A stretch of DNA of 38,489 nt from Gemmatimonadaceae bacterium (GCA_019694735.1 JAIBBJ010000189.1:1-38489); one strand, 5' to 3'. Counted from the stretch's first letter, positions 3,679 to 14,000 are shown. Numbers and translations are program-made. Notes: generated by a model from the letters alone, not told the origin.

Positions 3679-3742
3679 ACGCGCGCCGCGGAGGCGGCGC
3701 GCGTCGGGTGCGACAGGGGGGAGGAGCCCGGGGCCCCGGCTC
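3679..3742. terminator. Two GC hairpins between convergent genes, probable bidirectional terminator
   Basis: A perfect 11-bp inverted repeat with a GGAG loop occupies 3679-3704 (arm ACGCGCGCCGC). A second tight hairpin at 3724-3742 has GAGCC/GGCTC arms and overlaps the stop codon of the minus-strand lipoprotein gene. No T-tract follows either, so the call rests on stem strength and on the position between two converging genes. Confidence 0.5.
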
Positions 3743-4688
3743 AGGGCGCGGGCTTCACGTCGAGGCACCACTCGTTCGGCACGCGGAAGATCATCCGCCA
3801 CTTCCCCTGCGCGTACTTCAGCACGCCGATCTCCGGCGTCGCCGCGTACTTCCACTCCTCGATGAGCAACTCGTCCACGCCGTCGCCGTCGAGGTCGGCG
3901 TGGTTGACGAGGCGCTGCATGTCCACCGCGCGCGCCTCGCCGCTGGAGACGTGCTGGTAGCTCGGGACGAGCGTGCCGGCGGAGTCCTCGGCGAGCGCGA
4001 GGATCATCGACGAGTGGCCCGCCCCTGCGCCGGCGTCGCCGCCGCTCGCATCGAGGTAGCTGGCGAGGAGCGTGCGCTTGGCGGGTCCGGCGCCGCTCGG
4101 GAGCCAGCGGGCGTCGAAGTTGAGGTGCCCGAGCTCCTCCGGCCCGACCTCGCGAGCCGCCGCGATCGTGTTCGCGAGCGTCCGCCCCTTCTCGGCGGCG
4201 TCCTTGGGCATCCGCTCCGTCTGCGCCGTCTGCGCGAGCGGCGTCGACGAGGCGATGTAATCCACGAGCGCATCGGGGGCGAGCTCGGTCGAGAGCCTTC
4301 CCTCCGCCTGCGGTACCAGCAACTGGCAGCCCGGGAGCGCGTAGAGCGCGCCCTCGTCGGTGAACATCGGGCGCGTGACCGTGAACTCGCCGGCCGCCGC
4401 GCCGTCGCGGTAGACCGTCAGGGTGCGCCCCTTCGCGAGGAACATCGAATCGAGCTGCCGCCATCCGGCGGCATCGAGCACGAGTTCCGCCACACGGCCG
4501 CCCTCGACGACGGCGATCGGGACGACCCGGGGGGCCGTGGCATCGCCGAAGACGTTGAAGAGGATCGTCGACTGCGCGGAGAGCGAGGTCAGGGGGCGGT
4601 CGGGGGCCGCGGCGGCGGGCGGTGCCTTCGGCTTGTCGCACGCCGAGAGCAGGGCTAGGATGCTCGCGATGATCACGGGGCGTCGCAT
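3741..4688 (-). CDS. Putative lipoprotein with a C-terminal acidic DxDGD calcium-type motif
   Basis: A 315-residue exported protein of unknown function. The N-terminus MRRPVIIASILALLSAC is a lipoprotein signal with the lipidated Cys at position 17, followed by an Ala/Pro-rich linker. Near the C-terminus, HADLDGDGVDELLIEEW is a DxDxDG-type calcium-binding motif as in FG-GAP or dockerin-like repeats, followed by strands ending in the KWRMIFRVPNEW segment. Two Cys (in LPGCQLL and EWCLDV) could form a disulfide. The ATG at 4688 is the only start that keeps the basic n-region. That start overlaps the divergent nurA-like start by two bases, so its promoter must lie within the neighbouring coding sequence, or the nurA-like gene starts further in. 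Confidence 0.82.
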   Translation of the reverse strand: MRRPVIIASILALLSACDKPKAPPAAAAPDRPLTSLSAQSTILFNVFGDATAPRVVPIAVVEGGRVAELVLDAAGWRQLDSMFLAKGRTLTVYRDGAAAGEFTVTRPMFTDEGALYALPGCQLLVPQAEGRLSTELAPDALVDYIASSTPLAQTAQTERMPKDAAEKGRTLANTIAAAREVGPEELGHLNFDARWLPSGAGPAKRTLLASYLDASGGDAGAGAGHSSMILALAEDSAGTLVPSYQHVSSGEARAVDMQRLVNHADLDGDGVDELLIEEWKYAATPEIGVLKYAQGKWRMIFRVPNEWCLDVKPAP

Positions 4689-5661
4689 GGGGCCAACCTA
4701 CGGCCCGTCCGAGGGAGCGGCAAGCGTCCGCGCCGTCCTGCGCGCCCTCCGTGACAGCGGGCTCACGCCGCGCGCCGCGGAGGCGATGCTCGAGGTGCAG
4801 CGCGCGGCGGACGAGCCGCCGCGTGTGGAGGCCGCGGTGCCGGTCGAGGGAGCCGCGCTCGAGGTCCGCGCCGTGCCGGGCGCGCCCGTGGTGGGCTTCG
4901 TGGCGTTCCTCGACGGGATCCAGCGGTCGCGCGTGCTCGCGCATGCGGGTCCGGTGCCGCTCGTGCACGGCGCGGTCGCGGCGGCCGTGCGGCTCCGCAC
5001 GGATCGCCGGCCCTCCACGTGGGAGTCTCCGGTGCTCTCGCAGCGGCTCTATGCGCCGCTCGGGCGCCTCGCCTCCGACGTCGTGCGCACCCTGGCGGCG
5101 GCCCTGCCGCTGACCGACACCGAGTCCGAGTCGACCGAGGGACCGGAACATCCGCAGGAGCTCGCGGCGCGTGCCCTGACGGCGGTGCAACGCACGCGGG
5201 AGTCGGCGGAGCTCACGCTGGTCGACGCGTGGGTGGCGCGGGGGCCGGGGCCCCTGCTCGTGGACGGCGGGATCAGCGGCAGCGCGGCCGGGTCGGCGAG
5301 CGACCGCGTCGTGGGGGTCGTCAAGTCCCACCGCACGCTGTACGCGGCCCCGGCCGCCCTCCCGCTCGTGCTGGACCTCCGCGAGGGCGAGCGGACGACC
5401 GCGGTGCGGCTCCATACGCCGCGCCGGCACGCCGTGGCGACCTGGTACCTCCGGCTGCGAGCGCCGGCGGCGCGCGGGCCGCTCTTCGGGCTCGTGCGCG
5501 TGGAGGCCGCCCTGGGCGACGACCTCACCGAACGCGCCGACCGCATCTCGCGCTGGCTGCTCGCGGAACGGGCTCCCGTCGCGCTCCCGGACGCGCGCTG
5601 GGACGTGATGGTCTACGGCGTCCGGGAATGCGAGCAGTACCTTTCCGCCATCCTCCGATGA
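4687..5661 (+). CDS. nurA: NurA-like nuclease, first gene of the end-resection operon
   Basis: A 324-residue protein assigned to the NurA family from key residues plus context. NurA is a 5'-3' ssDNA/dsDNA nuclease that works with the HerA hexamer in DNA end resection. FVAFLDG carries the first catalytic Asp (Asp76). An Arg/Glu helix (AVQRTRESAEL, 167-177) precedes LLVDGGI with the second acidic site (Asp193), and VVGVVKSHRTLY supplies the usual Lys213. The C-terminal VYGVRECEQYL fits the closing helix. The adjacent HerA, Mre11 and Rad50 genes strongly support the call. It is coupled to the next gene by ATGA at 5658-5661. The start is uncertain: ATG 4687 overlaps the divergent lipoprotein start, and ATG 4786 (residue 34) is an alternative that keeps all motifs. 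Overall identity to known NurA is likely low. Confidence 0.78.
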   Translation: MGPTYGPSEGAASVRAVLRALRDSGLTPRAAEAMLEVQRAADEPPRVEAAVPVEGAALEVRAVPGAPVVGFVAFLDGIQRSRVLAHAGPVPLVHGAVAAAVRLRTDRRPSTWESPVLSQRLYAPLGRLASDVVRTLAAALPLTDTESESTEGPEHPQELAARALTAVQRTRESAELTLVDAWVARGPGPLLVDGGISGSAAGSASDRVVGVVKSHRTLYAAPAALPLVLDLREGERTTAVRLHTPRRHAVATWYLRLRAPAARGPLFGLVRVEAALGDDLTERADRISRWLLAERAPVALPDARWDVMVYGVRECEQYLSAILR

Positions 5662-7622
5662 GCACAGCCATCCTCGGGCGCGTCGTCGCCACCGAACGGC
5701 GGCCCAACACGCCGCACGAGTTCCATTTCTGGACCCGGCTCGACGCGCCCGTCGGGATCGGGACGATCGTCCGTGTCGAGTCCGACCGGCCGGTGAACGG
5801 CGTCCTGCCGCGGACCTACGGCGTCGTGACCGAGGGCTTCGGCTACACCGACCTCGCGACGCCGCTGCACGACGTGCTCGGCGCCGACGGCGACCCGGCG
5901 CTCGCCTCGGCCGCGCCGACGGAGCGCACCGAGATCCGCCTGTACACCGCGGCCGTGTTGCGCCACGTGCCCGAGGAGCCGCTGCAGCCGGTGGCCATGG
6001 GGACCGTCCACCTCGCGAGCGAGGCCGACGTGCAGGCCGCGCTGCGCATGGATGGCTACGCGAGCGGACCGCAGCGGCGCGGCGTCCCGGTCGGCCTCTA
6101 CCGCGCCGGGGGCACCGAGGCCGCCGTCCACCTCGATGCCGACTTCCTGCTCGGGCCCGAGGCGGCGCACCTCAGCATCTCCGGCGTCTCCGGTCTCGCG
6201 ACGAAGACGAGCGCGGTCGAATGGCTGCTGGCCGGCATCTTCGCGCACCTCCCGCCGTCGAAGGGCCGCGTGGCCGCGGTCTGCTTCAACGTGAAGGGTC
6301 CCGACCTGTGCTTCCTCGACCAGCCGGCGGCGGCGCTCGCCGACGAGGACCGCGCGATGTACGCGGCGCTCGGCATCCCCGCGGCACCGTTCGGGCGCGT
6401 CCGCTACTTCGCGCCGTGGACCGCGAAGGGAGACCGCCTCGCGACGCTCCGCTCGCACGAGGCGCTGCAGGACGCGGTCACGCCCCTGACCTGGGGCCTG
6501 CGCGAGACGCTGCAGTACGCCGAGGTGCTGCTCAACAAGGATGATGTGGATGCGAAGGCCGACGCCCTGATCGACTTCATCAAGGAGCGCGTGGTCGACC
6601 AGCCGTTCACCGATCCCGGCTTCCTCGAGCGCGCACACGAGGTGCGATCCTTCAGCGACCTCGAACAGTGGTTCCGCGACCTGCTGCGCGGCATGGAGTC
6701 GCGCAACACCGAGGTCTGGCGGACGCACCACGTCGCCACCATCCGCAAGGTGCGCAATCGCCTCACCAACATCTCGACCCGCTGCAAGGGCCTCGTCACC
6801 GACGACGGGCTGGTGAGCGACCTGCCGTTCAAGGACGCGGGCTTCGAGGACCGGACGGTCTACGTCGTGGACGTCGCGAACCTCGAGGAGGACGCGCAGG
6901 ACCTCGTCTTCGCGCGCGTGGTGTCACAGCTGCGTGAGGCGCTGGAGAAGCGCCAGCTGGGCGTCGAGCAGGTGGTGGTCTTCGTCGACGAGCTGAACAA
7001 GTACGCGCCGGCCGACGGCCCCGACACGTACGTCCGGAAGATGCTGCTCGACATCGCCGAGCGCGGGCGCTACCTCGGGCTCGTGCTGTTCGGGGCGCAG
7101 CAGTTCCGCTCGCAGGTCCACCGCCGCGTGGTGGGCAACAGCGGCACGGCGCTGTTCGGGCGCATGGACCCCGACGAACTCGCCACGCCCGGGTACCAGA
7201 CGCTCGCGCCGGCGACCAAGGCCCGGCTCGCGACGCTCGAGAAGGGGCAGCTGATGGTGCGGCATCCGCACTTCGGCCAGCCGATCTTCGTGCGGTTCCC
7301 GCGGCCGGCGGTGCTCACGGGACGCGAGGGGGTCGAGCGCTTCCCCCCCGTGGCGGAGCGCCCGCTCGAGGAGGCCCTGACGGCGCAGCTCCGCCGCCTC
7401 GACCCGACCATCACGCTCGGCTGGGTGCAGGACACCCTCGCCCTCGCCGGGGACGACGAGGATGGCGTCCTGAGGGCGCGGAACCGGACCGTGCAGGCGC
7501 GGCCCGACGACGTGAAGGCGTTCTTCCGGGCGCAGTTGCGGAAGCGCGCCACCCCCGAGGTGGCGGGCCGGCGCGCCCCCGCGCCGCTGCGAACGCCGGC
7601 GTCGGACGACCCGTACGGGTGA
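5658..7622 (+). CDS. herA: HerA-like HAS-barrel AAA+/FtsK-superfamily ATPase with altered P-loop
   Basis: A 654-residue protein with the HerA layout: an N-terminal HAS barrel (LGRVVATERRP to about 110, with GIGTIVRVES), a RecA/FtsK-like ATPase core and a C-terminal segment. HerA is a hexameric DNA translocase that feeds DNA to NurA. The Walker A reads GVSGLATKT (176-184, Lys183), which has one residue more than GxTGxGKT and lacks the Gly before Lys. Walker B is VVVFVDELNKYAP with Asp444-Glu445. An Arg-rich stretch (SQVHRRVVGNSG) followed by LFGRMDPDEL fits the arginine-finger region. A 200-residue insertion-like segment with basic residues (IRKVRNRLTNI) lies between the two Walker motifs. The start at 5658 overlaps the nurA-like stop, and the end overlaps the Mre11 start (GTGA 7619-7622). 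Confidence 0.88.
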   Translation: MSTAILGRVVATERRPNTPHEFHFWTRLDAPVGIGTIVRVESDRPVNGVLPRTYGVVTEGFGYTDLATPLHDVLGADGDPALASAAPTERTEIRLYTAAVLRHVPEEPLQPVAMGTVHLASEADVQAALRMDGYASGPQRRGVPVGLYRAGGTEAAVHLDADFLLGPEAAHLSISGVSGLATKTSAVEWLLAGIFAHLPPSKGRVAAVCFNVKGPDLCFLDQPAAALADEDRAMYAALGIPAAPFGRVRYFAPWTAKGDRLATLRSHEALQDAVTPLTWGLRETLQYAEVLLNKDDVDAKADALIDFIKERVVDQPFTDPGFLERAHEVRSFSDLEQWFRDLLRGMESRNTEVWRTHHVATIRKVRNRLTNISTRCKGLVTDDGLVSDLPFKDAGFEDRTVYVVDVANLEEDAQDLVFARVVSQLREALEKRQLGVEQVVVFVDELNKYAPADGPDTYVRKMLLDIAERGRYLGLVLFGAQQFRSQVHRRVVGNSGTALFGRMDPDELATPGYQTLAPATKARLATLEKGQLMVRHPHFGQPIFVRFPRPAVLTGREGVERFPPVAERPLEEALTAQLRRLDPTITLGWVQDTLALAGDDEDGVLRARNRTVQARPDDVKAFFRAQLRKRATPEVAGRRAPAPLRTPASDDPYG

Positions 7623-8884
7623 GTAGATTCCCCGCGTCCGTGCGCCTCGTCCACCTCTCCGACCTGCACCTCGGCTTCCGCCAGTACCAGCGGCAGACCG
7701 CGGCCGGGATCAACCAGCGCGAAGCCGATGTCGCGCAGGCGTTCGCGCGCGCGGTGGACCGGTTGATCCAGCTGGCGCCCGACGTGATCCTGATCGGCGG
7801 CGACGTGTTCCACACCGTGCGGCCGACCAACACGGCGATCCTGCACGCCTTCCGCCAGTTCTCGCGCCTGGTGACCGCGCTGCCGCGGGCCCACGTCGTC
7901 GTCGTGGCGGGCAACCACGACATGCCGCGCTCGACCGAGACGATCTGCATCCTCCGGCTCTTCGAGCAGGGCTTCGTTGCGCGCGACGGGGACGGGACGG
8001 ACCAGGCGCTGCCGGCGCTGCCGATCTACGTGGCGGACCGTGAGGCGCGGCGGATCCGATTCCCGCACCTCGACCTCGCGGTGCTCGCGGTGCCGGACCT
8101 TCCGCCGGGGACGGTGGAGCTCACCCCGGACCCGACGGCGCGCTACAACGTGCTGCTGATGCACGGCGAGGTGCAGGGTGCGCTGCCCGCGGCCGACGAC
8201 GCCGACCGCGCCGCCATGCAGATCCCGGTGGAGGAGCTGACGCGGCCGGGGTGGGACTACGTGGCACTCGGCCACTACCACGTCTACAAGCGCCTCGCCG
8301 ACCACGTCTACTACTCCGGCTCGCTCGAGTACACGAGCTCGAATCCGTGGGGCGAGCTCGCCGAGGAGAAGGCGGCGAGGCTCCCCGGGAAGGGGATGAT
8401 CGAGCGCGACCTCGGCACGGGGAAGCAGACGTTCCACCCGCTCCCGGCGACGCGGCCGGTGCTCGACCTCGCCCCGATCGAGGGGCGCGGGATGAGCGCG
8501 GCCGAGCTCGACGCCGCCATCCAGCAGGCCGTCGGCCGCATCACGGGAGGGCTCGACGGCAAGGTGGTCCGGCTCGTCGCGCGCAACGTGCCGCGGCACA
8601 TCGCACGGGAGCTCGACCACAAGGCGCTGCGCGAGTTGCAGAAGCGCGCGCTGCACTTCCATCTCGACATGCGACGACCGGAGCTGGTGCGCCGGGCGCC
8701 CGCCACGGGATCCGGGGCGCCCGGGCGCCGGCCCTCGCTCGCCGACACGCTGCGCGAGGCACTCCGCGCGCGGCCGGTGGTGCACGGGGTCGAGCGCGAG
8801 GCCCTCGTGGCGCTCGGACTGCGCTATCTCGAGGAGGCCGAACTCGCGGAGCCGGCGCGCGACCTGCCGGGGGGCGACGGATGA
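7619..8884 (+). CDS. sbcD: SbcD/Mre11-family DNA repair nuclease
   Basis: A 421-residue manganese-dependent calcineurin-like phosphoesterase, the nuclease partner of the SbcC/Rad50 ATPase. All metal and catalytic motifs are present: SDLHLG (Asp15, His17), GGDVFH (Asp62), GNHD (99-101), MHGE (His182) and GHYHVY (His219, His221). The last of these is usual in Mre11 and SbcD. After the phosphoesterase domain come a capping-like domain (about 290-360) and a C-terminal segment rich in Arg/Glu that would bind the Rad50 coiled-coil base. The GTG at 7619 overlaps the herA-like stop; another GTG at 7640 lies just before the first strand (RLVHLSDLH). It is coupled to the Rad50 gene by ATGA at 8881-8884. 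Confidence 0.93.
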   Translation: MSRFPASVRLVHLSDLHLGFRQYQRQTAAGINQREADVAQAFARAVDRLIQLAPDVILIGGDVFHTVRPTNTAILHAFRQFSRLVTALPRAHVVVVAGNHDMPRSTETICILRLFEQGFVARDGDGTDQALPALPIYVADREARRIRFPHLDLAVLAVPDLPPGTVELTPDPTARYNVLLMHGEVQGALPAADDADRAAMQIPVEELTRPGWDYVALGHYHVYKRLADHVYYSGSLEYTSSNPWGELAEEKAARLPGKGMIERDLGTGKQTFHPLPATRPVLDLAPIEGRGMSAAELDAAIQQAVGRITGGLDGKVVRLVARNVPRHIARELDHKALRELQKRALHFHLDMRRPELVRRAPATGSGAPGRRPSLADTLREALRARPVVHGVEREALVALGLRYLEEAELAEPARDLPGGDG

Positions 8885-11325
8885 GGCTCGTCCGGCTTCG
8901 CCTCGTGAACTTCCGGCAGCATGCCGACTCGGACATCGCGTTCGAGACGGGATTGACGGGCATCATCGGCCCGAACGGCGCCGGCAAGTCGACGATCCTC
9001 GAGGCGATCGCCTGGGCGCTCTACGGCGGCAACACGCTGCGGGGCGGCAACGAGTCGATCCGTTTCCGACGGGCCGCGGCGCGGGCGCCGGTGCGCGTGG
9101 AACTCGAGTTCGAGCTCGCCGGCCACCGGTACCGCGTCGTCCGCGGCCTCTCGATGGCCGAGCTCTACCTCGACGGTGGGACCGAGCCCATCGCGAACTC
9201 GGTGACGGCCGTGACGGACATGCTCCAGCGGCGCATCGGCATGACGCGGACCGAGTTCTTCAACACGTACTTCACCGGACAGAAGGATCTCGCGGTGATG
9301 AACGCGCTCACCGCCGGCGAGCGGGCGCAGTTCCTCTCCCGCGTGCTCGGATACGAGCGGTTGCGTGTCGCCCAGGAGCTCTGCGCCACCCGGCGGAAGG
9401 AGCTGGCGAGCGAGATCGCGGGGTTGCGCGCCGGCATGCCCGAGCGCGACGCGGTCGAGGCGCAGCTCCGCGAGACCGACGCTGCGCGCACGGCCGCCGA
9501 GCGCGCGGCGGCGGAAGCCGACCGGCTCGAGGCCGAGACGAAGGCGGCGCTGGCGGCGGTGGCACCGCGCTGGCTCGCGGCCCAGACCGGTCGCGAGGAA
9601 CGGCAGCGCCTCGAGACCGAGCTCGCGGCGGTCGAGGGCGAGGCGGCTGCGCTGACCCGCGCGGAGGAGCGCCTGGTGTCCGAGCTCGCGCAGGTCGCCG
9701 AGGCGCGTGCGGCGCTCCAGCCGCTGCTCCCCGACGTGGCCGCGTTCGAAGGCGCGCAGGCGGAACTGGAGGCGATGCGCGCGCTGGAGGTGCACGACGG
9801 GCGCCGCCGGGCGCTCCTCGAGACCCAGGGGGCGTTGGCGGCGGAGGTGCAGGCGCTCGACGAGCAGCGGGACCGGCTTGCGACCGCGCCGCAGCTCGAG
9901 GAGCAGGCGACGGTGGAGCTGGAGGCGCGCCGGAAGGCGCTGGAGGAGGCGCACGGCACCCTGGAGGCCCGCCGCACCGAGTGGGTGCGTGACCGGCAGG
10001 AGGTCGATTCGCGGCTGCGCGCGCTCCGCGGCCAGTACGCCGAGATGCGCGACCAGCGCGACAAGCTGCTCCAGCTGGGCGAGGAGGGGGCGTGCCCCAC
10101 CTGCACACGCCCCCTCGGCGCCCACTTCCGCGACGTGCTCGACGTCCTCGAGCGGCAGCTCGAGCTCGTCGAGTCCGACGGCAGCTACTTCCGCTCGCGC
10201 CTCGAGCAGCTCGAGCCGATGCCGGCGGACATCGCGCATCTCGACGAGCTGCGCCGGAAGCTGCAGGGCGAGGTCGGGCCGCTCGAGCGCCGCCTCGCGA
10301 AGGTGCAGGCCGCGGTGCAGCAGCTCGCGCTGGTCGAGCGCGACCGACAGGGGAAGGCCGCGCGGCTCGCGGCGACCACCGCCGAGCTCGCGACGATCCC
10401 CGGCGGCTACGATGCCGGGCGGCACCAGGCGCTGGAGGCGGAGCACGCGCGGCTCGCCGAGGTGTCGACGCTGGCGAACCGGCTCTCGACGCGGATCGAG
10501 CGCGAACCGGTGCTCAAGCGCGAGCAGGAGGCGCTGGCGCGCACGCGCGCGGCGCTCGCCGCGCGGCGGGACGCGGCGTCGGCGCGGCTCGCCGCCCTGC
10601 AGTTCCCGGAGGAGGACTTCGCGGCGCTCCGCCGGCTCCATGATGAGGTCGCCGCCGCGTACGCCGAGGCGTCGCGCGCCGCCGCGGGAGCGCGGGCGGG
10701 CCGCGACATCGCGCGCGACGGCGCGCGCCGCGCCGCCGACGCGAAGGCCGAGCACGACCGGCTCGCCGAGCGCGTGGAGGCGCTCGAGCAGGACCGGCGC
10801 CTGCACGACGAGCTCCACCGCGCGTACTCCGACCTGCGGACCGACCTCAACTTCCAGCTGCGGCCGGAGGTGTCGGAGATCGCGTCGAGCTTCATCACCG
10901 AGCTGACCGACGCCCGCTACACGGAGCTCGAGCTCGACGACAAGTACCGGCTCGTCGTGCTCGAGGAGGGGGTGCCCCAGACGGTCATCTCCGGGGGCGA
11001 GGAGGACATCGCCAACCTCGTGCTGCGTCTCGCCATCTCGCAGATGATCGCCGACCGGGCCGGGCAGAGCTTCTCGTTGCTGGTGCTCGACGAGGTCTTC
11101 GGGTCGCTCGATGAGGTCCGGCGGCAGAACGTGCTGACGCTGCTGCGCGGGTTGCACGACCGCTTCGAACAGGTCATCGTCATCACGCACATCGAGGGCG
11201 TGCGCGACGGGCTCGATCGCGTGATCACGGTCGGGTTCGATGAACGGACCGGCGGCGCCGTGGTCGGCACGGTGGAGCCGGCCGGCGGCGACACCCTCCT
11301 CCTCGAGGCCGGGAGCGCGGCATGA
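8881..11325 (+). CDS. sbcC: SbcC/Rad50-family SMC-like ATPase with zinc hook
   Basis: An 814-residue ABC/SMC-type ATPase that bridges or processes DNA ends with its Mre11 partner. Walker A GPNGAGKS occupies 30-37, followed by the Q-loop region (TYFTGQKD). Two coiled-coil arms rich in Ala, Glu and Arg (about 165-390 and 440-650) flank the zinc hook CPTC (Cys405, Cys408), with EEGACPTCTRPLG in the family form. The signature motif ISGGEED starts near 703 and Walker B LLVLDEVFGSLDE has Asp737-Glu738. At 814 residues it is shorter than typical bacterial SbcC (about 1,050) and closer in size to archaeal Rad50. Overlaps at both ends (ATGA at 8881 and 11322) place it in the same coupled unit. The frame is open further upstream, but that part overlaps the sbcD gene and shows no domain. 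Confidence 0.95.
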   Translation: MRLVRLRLVNFRQHADSDIAFETGLTGIIGPNGAGKSTILEAIAWALYGGNTLRGGNESIRFRRAAARAPVRVELEFELAGHRYRVVRGLSMAELYLDGGTEPIANSVTAVTDMLQRRIGMTRTEFFNTYFTGQKDLAVMNALTAGERAQFLSRVLGYERLRVAQELCATRRKELASEIAGLRAGMPERDAVEAQLRETDAARTAAERAAAEADRLEAETKAALAAVAPRWLAAQTGREERQRLETELAAVEGEAAALTRAEERLVSELAQVAEARAALQPLLPDVAAFEGAQAELEAMRALEVHDGRRRALLETQGALAAEVQALDEQRDRLATAPQLEEQATVELEARRKALEEAHGTLEARRTEWVRDRQEVDSRLRALRGQYAEMRDQRDKLLQLGEEGACPTCTRPLGAHFRDVLDVLERQLELVESDGSYFRSRLEQLEPMPADIAHLDELRRKLQGEVGPLERRLAKVQAAVQQLALVERDRQGKAARLAATTAELATIPGGYDAGRHQALEAEHARLAEVSTLANRLSTRIEREPVLKREQEALARTRAALAARRDAASARLAALQFPEEDFAALRRLHDEVAAAYAEASRAAAGARAGRDIARDGARRAADAKAEHDRLAERVEALEQDRRLHDELHRAYSDLRTDLNFQLRPEVSEIASSFITELTDARYTELELDDKYRLVVLEEGVPQTVISGGEEDIANLVLRLAISQMIADRAGQSFSLLVLDEVFGSLDEVRRQNVLTLLRGLHDRFEQVIVITHIEGVRDGLDRVITVGFDERTGGAVVGTVEPAGGDTLLLEAGSAA

Positions 11326-12287
11326 CCGATCCGGGACAGCGCGTCGCGGGGCCGTTCCCGATCACGGGCGGGGACCTGCCGGCGCTCAACGTGCTCTTCA
11401 GCGATGCCTTCAGCGAACGCTATCGGCGCGACGGCATGGCCGGCGTGCGCGTGCCGCCCCTCAATCCCGCGATCTGGCGCTATGCGATCGAGGGGGCGGG
11501 CGAGGGCGCCATGCTCTGGCGCGACGGGCTCGGGCGCATCGCGGCGTTCAACCTCGCGCACGCGTCGGGCCGCGAGGGGTGGATGGGGCCGCTCGCCGTC
11601 CGCGAGGACCTGCAGGGGCAGGGACTCGGCCGGACCATCGTGCGCGCCGGCATCGAGCGGCTGCGCGCCGCCGGCTGCACGACGATCGGTCTCGAGACGA
11701 TGCCGCGCACGATGGACAACATCGGCTTCTATGCCGGTCTCGGATTCGTGCCGCAGCGGCTGACGCTCACGCTCACGCTCGACGGCACGCCGGGCACGGA
11801 CCAGCGGCCGCTGCTGCTCGGGCAACTCGGCGGCGCGGCGCGCGAGGAGGCGATCGCCGAGTGCGCGGAGCTGGTCGCTGCACTGCGGCCGGGCGCGGAC
11901 TACTCGCGCGAGATCGCGCTCACGCTGCGGTTCGGGCTCGGCGACTGCGTCCTGCTGCGCGACGACGCCGACGTGCTCATCGGCTTCGCGCTCTTCCACG
12001 ACGTGCCGCTGGTGGAAGGCCGATTGCGGGAGGAGATCCGCGTCCTGAAGTGCGCGCTCGCCGAGGAGACGCTCATGGCGCGGATCTGCGAGGCGCTTGC
12101 GATGCAGACGCGGCGGAGCGGGGCACTGCGGTGCGCGGTGCGGCTCCAGGGCGAGTATACCGCCGCCTTCCGTACCATGATCGCACGCGGGGCGCGCGTG
12201 CGGTGGACCGACCTCCGGATGAGTCTCGGTGGGTTCGAGGAGCGCCCGCCGCGGATGGGGTGCGTCCTCTCGAACTGGGAGATCTGA
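11322..12287 (+). CDS. Tandem GNAT-family N-acetyltransferase, last gene of the resection operon
   Basis: A 321-residue protein with an N-terminal GNAT domain (about 10-155). WMGPLAVREDLQGQGLGRTIV contains the acetyl-CoA loop Q-G-Q-G-L-G at 98-103, and NIGFYAGLGFVPQ is the usual closing segment. The second half (about 165-321) looks like a second, degenerate GNAT fold (CVLLRDDADVLIGFALFHDVP) without a clear acetyl-CoA loop. The start ATG overlaps the Rad50 stop (ATGA 11322-11325), so it is translated with the DNA-end genes. Whether it acetylates one of those proteins, a small molecule, or is simply a passenger cannot be told from sequence. The C-terminal residues abut a convergent small gene. 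Confidence 0.85.
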   Translation: MTDPGQRVAGPFPITGGDLPALNVLFSDAFSERYRRDGMAGVRVPPLNPAIWRYAIEGAGEGAMLWRDGLGRIAAFNLAHASGREGWMGPLAVREDLQGQGLGRTIVRAGIERLRAAGCTTIGLETMPRTMDNIGFYAGLGFVPQRLTLTLTLDGTPGTDQRPLLLGQLGGAAREEAIAECAELVAALRPGADYSREIALTLRFGLGDCVLLRDDADVLIGFALFHDVPLVEGRLREEIRVLKCALAEETLMARICEALAMQTRRSGALRCAVRLQGEYTAAFRTMIARGARVRWTDLRMSLGGFEERPPRMGCVLSNWEI

Positions 12288-12940: not shown

Positions 12941-13354
12941 ATGCCCATCGTCTCGATCACCCGGATCGTCCGCTTCAACGCGGCGCACCGCGTCTACAAT
13001 CCCGCCTGGGACGACGCGCGCAACGCGTCGACCTTCGGGAAGTGCAACAATCCCAACTGGCACGGCCACAACTACGTGCTCGAGGTCACCGTCGAGGGCG
13101 AGGTCGACCCCGAGACGGGATTCGTGGTCAATCTGGCCGACGTGAAGCGCGTCGCCGAGCGCGAGCTGGTGGACGTGATCGACCACAAGAACCTCAATCT
13201 CGACGTCCCGTTCATGACGGGAACGATTCCGACCACCGAGAACCTTGTACTGGCGTGCTGGCGCATCCTCGCGCCGGCGGTCGCGCCCGCGCGGCTCGCC
13301 AAGCTCAAGCTCTGGGAGACGGAGAATCAGTATGTCGAGTACACTGGCCGCTGA
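12941..13354 (+). CDS. 6-pyruvoyl-tetrahydropterin synthase / QueD-family protein (PTPS-like Cys motif)
   Basis: A 137-residue T-fold enzyme acting on dihydroneopterin triphosphate. Zinc ligands are His16, His41 and His43; the catalytic Cys35 sits in [13 protein letters not shown]. The Cys-x5-HGH spacing and the flanking CNNPN, DHKNL, TTEN and [10 protein letters not shown] segments resemble the eukaryotic-type PTPS that makes 6-pyruvoyl-tetrahydropterin. QueD (queuosine pathway) usually has Cys-x3-HGH. Automated pipelines would still name it 6-carboxytetrahydropterin synthase. The ATG at 12941 gives the family's usual N-terminus; no good Shine-Dalgarno sequence is visible, and the leader is folded. 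The gene overlaps folE by 23 bases, and an SDR follows, which points to a tetrahydropterin cofactor pathway. Confidence 0.85.
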
Positions 13355-14000
13355 GGCGGCGCACGATATGGCCAAGCCCATCTCCGGCAGTGACCAGTTC
13401 GAGGCCGATCCGCCGATCCGCGGCGACCGGATGCTCGAGTTCGAGAACATCATCCGGCGCGAGCTCGAGATCATCGGCGAGGACCCGCACCGCGAGGGGC
13501 TCCTCAAGACGCCGGAGCGAGTCGCGAAGGCGATGAGCTGGCTCACGCGTGGCTACGGCATGGAGGTCGCGGACGTCGTCGGCGACGCCGTGTTCGAGGA
13601 GCAGCACGCATCCATGGTGATGGTGCGCGACATCGAGTTCTACTCGATGTGCGAGCATCACATGCTGCCGTTCTTCGGTCGGGCGCACATCGCGTACATC
13701 CCGGACGGCCGCATCGTCGGCCTCTCCAAGCTGCCGCGGATCGTCGAGGTCTACGCCCGCCGGCTCCAGGTCCAGGAGCGGCTCACCGAGCAGGTGGCCA
13801 CGGCGATCGAGACGGTGCTGGCGCCGAAGGGCGTCGGGGTCGTGATCGAGGCGTCGCACCTCTGCATGATGATGCGCGGCGTCGAGAAGCAGGCATCGAG
13901 CACCATCACGTCGGCGTTGCGCGGCGCGTTCCGTGACGACGCGAAGACACGCGACGAGTTCCTCAGCCTGGCCTACGGCTCGGCCAACGGCCGCCGCTGA
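13332..14000 (+). CDS. folE: GTP cyclohydrolase I
   Basis: A 222-residue enzyme that converts GTP to dihydroneopterin triphosphate, the entry step to folate, queuosine and biopterin. The zinc site is complete: Cys107 and His110 in MCEHHMLPF, and Cys178 in SHLCMMMRG. Other family marks are [13 protein letters not shown] near 55-67 and [25 protein letters not shown] (130-154). The start at 13332 has GGAG at 13321-13324 and overlaps the PTPS gene; ATG 13368 is a possible shorter start. The product of this enzyme is the substrate of the preceding gene's product, so the overlap makes biochemical sense. The SDR gene starts two bases after the stop codon. Confidence 0.97.

Follow-up and report, generated by a model that had tools for sequence, protein, structure and literature searches.

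The window analysed here, 38,489 nucleotides in length, is one contig of the 3.52-Mb, 97% complete genome of a Gemmatimonadaceae bacterium, and the closest named relatives of the locus under study are Gemmatimonas and other Gemmatimonadaceae. Within positions 4687-12287 it carries five open reading frames, all on the plus strand, which encode homologs of NurA, HerA, Mre11 and Rad50 followed by a tandem GNAT acetyltransferase (Table 1). As an earlier note on this DNA had described, the ORF coordinates place a 4-nt overlap at each of the four junctions, and, since orthologues of all five genes occur in the same order in dozens of genomes, the arrangement is not due to chance. The lipoprotein-like gene on the left is divergent to nurA and starts at about 4676-4688, so that the two start codons overlap or nearly do so, leaving no free intergenic gap or ordinary promoter space (4660-4688); promoter and terminator scans yielded nothing useful. 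The start of nurA is ambiguous owing to two additional in-frame ATG codons, and a MI(A/T)GRR stretch is retained in close relatives; in mre11, use of the alternative GTG would abolish the overlap with herA.

Table 1. Genes of the nurA-herA-mre11-rad50-GNAT locus and its immediate neighbours (positions in the window)
Feature	Position	Strand	Remarks
Divergent lipoprotein-like gene	3741..4688	-	Bounds the removable nurA-herA pair on the left
NurA, bacterial type, RNase H-like nuclease (by predicted fold)	4687..5661	+	324 aa; start possibly 4660 or 4669
HerA, hexameric ATPase/DNA translocase type	5658..7622	+	654 aa; P-loop GVSGLATKTS, Walker B VVFVDELNKY
Mre11/SbcD phosphodiesterase	7619..8884	+	421 aa; GTG start 7619, alternative GTG 7640
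Rad50/SbcC ATPase	8881..11325	+	814 aa; CPTC zinc hook, ISGGEE signature, Walker A and B
Tandem GNAT acetyltransferase	11322..12287	+	321 aa; QxxGxG acetyl-CoA motif in the N-terminal half, none in the C-terminal half
6-pyruvoyl tetrahydropterin synthase-like gene (PTPS)	12941..13354	+	Pfam PTPS 9e-34; right-hand neighbour outside the operon
FolE	13368-14000		Right of the PTPS gene; Pfam GTP_cyclohydroI 1e-76; outside the operon

Family assignment of the five proteins

Searches of Pfam, NCBIfam and PADLOC with the first protein returned no family match, the single weak Pfam match being far below cut-off, and the Pfam NurA model (PF09376, archaeal-type), which was positive in the control genomes of archaea, Thermotoga, Synechococcus and Deinobacterium, found no match in the entire host genome. 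This blank was considered as a refutation of NurA identity, and is overruled by the fold and profile evidence. The best phmmer match among solved structures was Deinococcus radiodurans NurA (E 0.006), and a profile of NurA orthologues matched the same protein (7f6d) at E 1.8e-5. The AlphaFold model (pLDDT 87) gave significant Foldseek matches only to D. radiodurans NurA (7f6d, E 9e-13) and TM1739 (1zup, E 5e-11), and its VIA-align Z scores of 19.2 to TM1739, 18.3 to D. radiodurans NurA and 14.0 to S. solfataricus NurA (2ygk) compare with a baseline of about 9 for unrelated, non-NurA proteins of RNase H-like fold. Residues D76, D193, K213 and E273 are invariant as far as the plasmid and phage NurAs, with D76, D193 and E273 also invariant in comparison with six distant NurAs, and E175 is invariant within the phylum; the acidic residues are those of the conserved nuclease core, and may ligate metal. 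Judged by its predicted fold, the first protein is a bacterial-type NurA, the identity on which the earlier note had made its reading depend.

The second protein matches D. radiodurans HerA (7f6d_B), the sole solved relative found, with a phmmer E of 1.2e-44; the P-loop of the latter, GISGVATKTS, aligns with that of the present protein, as does Walker B, and the Walker A K-T and Walker B D-E motifs are near-invariant in 70 orthologues. Its placement among bacterial HerAs, a class also defined by a 6:2 complex with NurA and by ATP-dependent 5′ resection, is made here from sequence. Mre11 matches Pfam Metallophos (4e-12) and passes the TIGR00619 sbcd cut-off (79.5 bits against 77.65), and its metal-binding D, H, D, N-H, H and H-x-H motifs are conserved in 70 orthologues. 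Rad50 matches the Rad50 model PRK03918 (4e-60) and AAA_23 (2e-21), and its hook cysteines (CPTC), ISGGEE signature and Walker A/B residues are invariant over 70 orthologues. Its score of 87 bits against SbcC TIGR00618 falls short of the 478.5-bit cut-off, which was reached in just one of 14 control genomes, so that this failure rules out only an E. coli-like SbcC. In one small, HerA-less genome (G028; L151), the best Rad50 match in front of the GNAT gene covers only residues 1-452, and this Rad50 may be shortened or frameshifted.

The fifth protein contains a Pfam Acetyltransf_1 domain (2e-12, residues 62-142), and its mean column identity over 28 orthologues is 64%. Its AlphaFold model (pLDDT 94) aligns with the Pyrococcus horikoshii tandem GNAT NP_142035.1 (3ddd) with a VIA-align Z of 25.1, the two proteins sharing the arrangement of their two GNAT halves, although they are only 16% identical. 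Folds, profile matches and motifs together bear out the earlier assignment of NurA, HerA, Mre11, Rad50 and tandem GNAT families.

Inheritance of the locus and its two modules

Of 298 Gemmatimonadota genomes, 158 have HerA orthologues: 86 of the 103 in the same family (f1), 64 of the 65 in the order's second family (f2), and eight in the families f4 and f9 of the same class, while a further 30 genomes of the phylum contain distant relatives only. All five genes recur in the same order in f1 and f2, the kind of recurrence in related genomes that the earlier note had looked to. In f4 and f9, the loci with HerA are without GNAT, several of them include Mre11-Rad50, and in f9 NurA is located elsewhere in the genome. 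Comparison of the HerA tree with the Mre11+Rad50 tree for 70 orthologues showed that 34 of 37 well-supported HerA splits are shared and two are in conflict. The locus is syntenic, lying among an aminotransferase, an AsnC-type gene, the lipoprotein gene and PTPS-FolE, the latter pair being found to the right of the operon in most f1 loci. In the order, the block is core chromosomal, syntenic and vertically inherited.

Spacing does not exceed 10 nt between Mre11 and Rad50 in 93 of 93 relatives, between Rad50 and GNAT in 78 of 91, and between NurA and HerA in 25 of 58; the median gap between HerA and Mre11 is 792 nt, and in only one of 47 genomes is there a start that gives the 4-nt overlap. The present genome is the only one coupled at all four junctions. 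In the 22 genomes of the order that are without HerA, GNAT is present in all except one, and each of the 20 HerA-less loci fetched retains Rad50-GNAT, as well as Mre11 wherever the stretch extends that far. The flanks of these loci are unchanged, with the lipoprotein gene to the left of mre11 in many of them; on L161 it directly faces mre11, with 140 nt between the two matches. Whole-genome profile searches did not find NurA in three HerA-less genomes, indicating that nurA and herA were lost together. Parsimony on the Mre11-Rad50-GNAT tree yields about ten changes of HerA state, which we read as losses because the nurA-herA pair occupies a shared position; in relatives, then, about ten losses have removed the pair from loci that are otherwise unchanged. 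A single coupled unit of five genes, as previously proposed, is ruled out by the junction statistics and the HerA-less loci: the 4-nt overlaps in this genome stand, but the unit is divisible, and the operon consists of two modules, the separable nurA-herA pair and Mre11-Rad50, mostly with GNAT.

Almost all genomes of f1, f2 and f3 contain the GNAT gene; elsewhere no match better than 8e-7 was obtained. The gene follows Rad50 in 79 of 79 contigs having upstream sequence, has been kept in place after rad50 almost throughout the order, even in genomes reduced to 1.8-2.1 Mb, and was nowhere in the order seen relocated away from it. The possibility that GNAT forms part of NurA-HerA is ruled out, as it is kept in all fetched HerA-less loci and missing from the HerA-bearing f4/f9 loci. 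Its staying with Mre11-Rad50 when HerA is lost assigns it to that half; the acetyltransferase described earlier as the fifth member of the whole set was correctly recognized and is indeed adjacent, but it goes with Mre11-Rad50. To judge by this linkage, it most likely acts on a component of Mre11-Rad50 or on a partner.

In many relatives (L032, L034, L047-L050, L068, L070 and L153-L160), though not in the window, mre11 is directly preceded by a gene for a secreted protein, some 280-330 aa long, that weakly matches DUF6263; this gene persists when nurA-herA is lost. Four f2 genomes (G012, G030, G018 and G104; loci L043, L044, L045 and L046) carry HerA-Mre11-Rad50-GNAT, and NurA was detected nowhere in their genomes; their HerA may use another nuclease, or NurA may have diverged beyond detection.

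RecBCD, AddAB and the proposed role of the operon

The host genome contains RecJ, RecQ and RecO, and scans of it for the PDDEXK_1 nuclease (PF12705) and for RecC were negative, so that RecBCD and AddAB are undetected, a result that the earlier note had said would support a role in resection. Across the phylum, strong AddAB-type PF12705 matches are present in 23 of 158 HerA-bearing versus 106 of 140 other genomes, an avoidance which lies largely between deep lineages. In f1, 12 of 17 HerA-less versus 19 of 86 HerA-bearing genomes have RecC (p 2e-4), and 14 of 17 versus 30 of 86 have either RecC or an AddAB-type match (Fisher p 4e-4), kinship being ignored in both comparisons; a tree-aware test on independent pairs in the order gave 1.6 in the expected direction versus 0.1, with a median p of 0.5 and too few informative pairs. 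In the host genus, both HerA-less genomes, which are small, have RecC, versus none of the ten HerA-bearing ones. Weak PF12705 matches in HerA-less genomes were considered as noise; this was rejected, since several lie in long UvrD-type helicase frames and the RecC scan identified RecBCD. HerA losses with neither RecBCD nor AddAB detected occur in G013, the f3 genomes, G199 and G201, many of the sampled genomes being incomplete MAGs. In G013 (L172), a PF12705 match lies within a 585-aa frame resembling a Cas4-Cas1 fusion. Some genomes hold both NurA-HerA and RecBCD/AddAB, which fits a gain of RecBCD preceding the loss of NurA-HerA.

We consider it probable that the locus is a chromosomal operon for double-strand break processing, with two functional halves and tuning by GNAT, in which NurA-HerA takes the role of RecBCD/AddAB; resection activity and cooperation between the halves are themselves inferred. 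Mre11-Rad50 would recognize DNA ends that are blocked or structured and open them; the HerA hexamer would, by homology with D. radiodurans (PMC9960219), pump duplex into the NurA dimer, and NurA would digest the 5′ strand so that a 3′ tail remains for RecA, thereby filling the place of RecBCD or AddAB in most bacteria. GNAT, co-translated with Mre11-Rad50, most likely acetylates a component of the complex or a partner and would in this way tune end processing. Deacetylation of human MRE11 at K393 promotes DNA binding and resection (PMC12948433), a distant analogy that illustrates only the possibility of such control. A bolder version, in which a dedicated GNAT would be the obligatory third gene and switch of Mre11-Rad50 throughout the order and the ancestral NurA-HerA would have been discarded once RecBCD/AddAB was available, is put forward tentatively. 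Overall, the earlier interpretation is upheld in part, in its phylum, its families and their recurrence, RecBCD/AddAB being undetected, and gives way as regards indivisibility, the acetyltransferase as partner of the whole set, and defence.

A role in defence had been offered in the earlier note as an alternative to end resection. That HerA-NurA and Mre11-Rad50 serve mainly to degrade phage or plasmid DNA, with GNAT as effector or regulator, now seems improbable. HerA and NurA homologues are indeed defensive elsewhere, TdpAB being a structural relative (Z 13), a PADLOC scan of the five proteins gave partial matches of mad8 and mad3 to HerA and Rad50, and related clusters reside on plasmids, one of them beside TIGR02680/TIGR02678/DUF2397, with NurA-HerA also in a Marinitoga phage. 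However, 150 of the 172 genomes sampled from the order have HerA, which sits among housekeeping genes at a single syntenic place wherever checked, the HerA and Mre11+Rad50 trees agree, mad-type matches are lacking for NurA, Mre11 and GNAT, the neighbour genes tested are housekeeping, and no mobile-element genes were seen alongside. Core, syntenic and vertical inheritance therefore favours DNA-end repair over defence.

It is also rather unlikely that NurA-HerA and Mre11-Rad50-GNAT are mere neighbours with independent jobs, held in synteny by slow rearrangement. The loose HerA-Mre11 junction, often with the DUF6263 gene in between, the equal synteny of the flanking folate and aminotransferase genes, the loss of nurA-herA with the trio untouched and the unlinked NurA of f9 all speak for it; yet inertia hardly explains why the same families cluster in unrelated phyla, on plasmids and in archaea, and Sulfolobus HerA binds Mre11-Rad50 (PMC2288612). 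A good deal more plausible, if still not our preferred reading, is that GNAT alone is an unrelated passenger, such as a metabolite or antibiotic acetyltransferase, placed behind rad50 for its expression, which would be compatible with resection by the other four proteins. Tandem GNATs of solved structure have varied substrates, GNAT genes are common operon passengers, and more than 10 nt separate rad50 from GNAT in 13 of 91 genomes; against this stand its retention behind rad50 even in reduced genomes, the level of its conservation and the lack of any relocation.

NurA-HerA is already known in bacteria, and four-gene sets may have been mentioned earlier (Constantinesco 2004, Iyer 2004). The new part is the Mre11-Rad50-GNAT trio, found across a whole order, together with the natural loss series, neither of which appeared in the literature searched, older comparative papers aside; searches of the open literature for NurA in Gemmatimonas and RecBCD in Gemmatimonadetes gave nothing relevant. 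If the operon acts in break processing as proposed, a lineage with culturable members would use an archaeal-style resection engine in the stead of RecBCD/AddAB and would be losing it in parallel, so that one could test whether the two engines are functionally equivalent. GNAT is a candidate regulator of bacterial Mre11-Rad50, from an enzyme class not found with the bacterial complex in the literature searched; in the bolder version given above, bacteria would gain a post-translational switch on break processing.

Related clusters in other organisms

D. radiodurans NurA-HerA (7f6d; PMC9960219) shares with the present pair the bacterial-type NurA fold, the TKTS P-loop and DELNKY Walker B of HerA, the joining of nurA and herA in one operon, and a genome in which RecBCD/AddAB is absent and RecJ/RecQ present; NurA identity is about 20%, however, and the present pair is linked to mre11, rad50 and GNAT. 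The D. radiodurans proteins resect 5′ strands, and are thought by the authors to compete with a robust RecJ-RecQ pathway (PMC9960219); the present genome has RecJ and RecQ too, which counts against the proposed role. The archaeal rad50-mre11-herA-nurA clusters contain the same four families, which are all adjacent and co-directional in our locus, and Sulfolobus Rad50, Mre11 and HerA co-precipitate (PMC2288612). In contrast to these clusters, NurA is missed here by Pfam NurA, HerA is nearest to the bacterial type, a GNAT is added, and the host is a bacterium with RecJ, RecQ and RecO.

With E. coli-type SbcCD, the locus shares the pairing of Mre11/SbcD with Rad50/SbcC, although its Rad50 has only 814 aa, scores well below the SbcC cut-off and is partnered by a GNAT. 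TdpB of the TdpAB system (8wfd), which we take to be the partner of a HerA-type ATPase, has a NurA-like fold (Z 13), but belongs to a defence system.

The four-gene set, regarded in the earlier note as unusual for a bacterium, is not unique to this lineage. Profiles confirmed all four families in clusters from plasmid records of Streptomyces, Nonomuraea, Sphaerospermopsis, Aulosira and Candidatus Chlorohelix (L220-L224), which span Actinomycetota, Cyanobacteriota and Chloroflexota. As in the window, NurA, HerA, SbcD and SbcC form one co-directional run; unlike it, they reside on plasmid records and have a longer SbcC and no GNAT, and in the two actinobacteria NurA comes last. Two of them (L221 and L223) adjoin genes for ImmA/IrrE-type metallopeptidases, and the Streptomyces cluster also adjoins the TIGR02680/TIGR02678/DUF2397 genes. 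Marinitoga camini virus 1 (L225, 4927-7635) has a NurA-HerA pair but no Mre11-Rad50 next to it, and its NurA matches the profile of the present NurA family at 4e-17.
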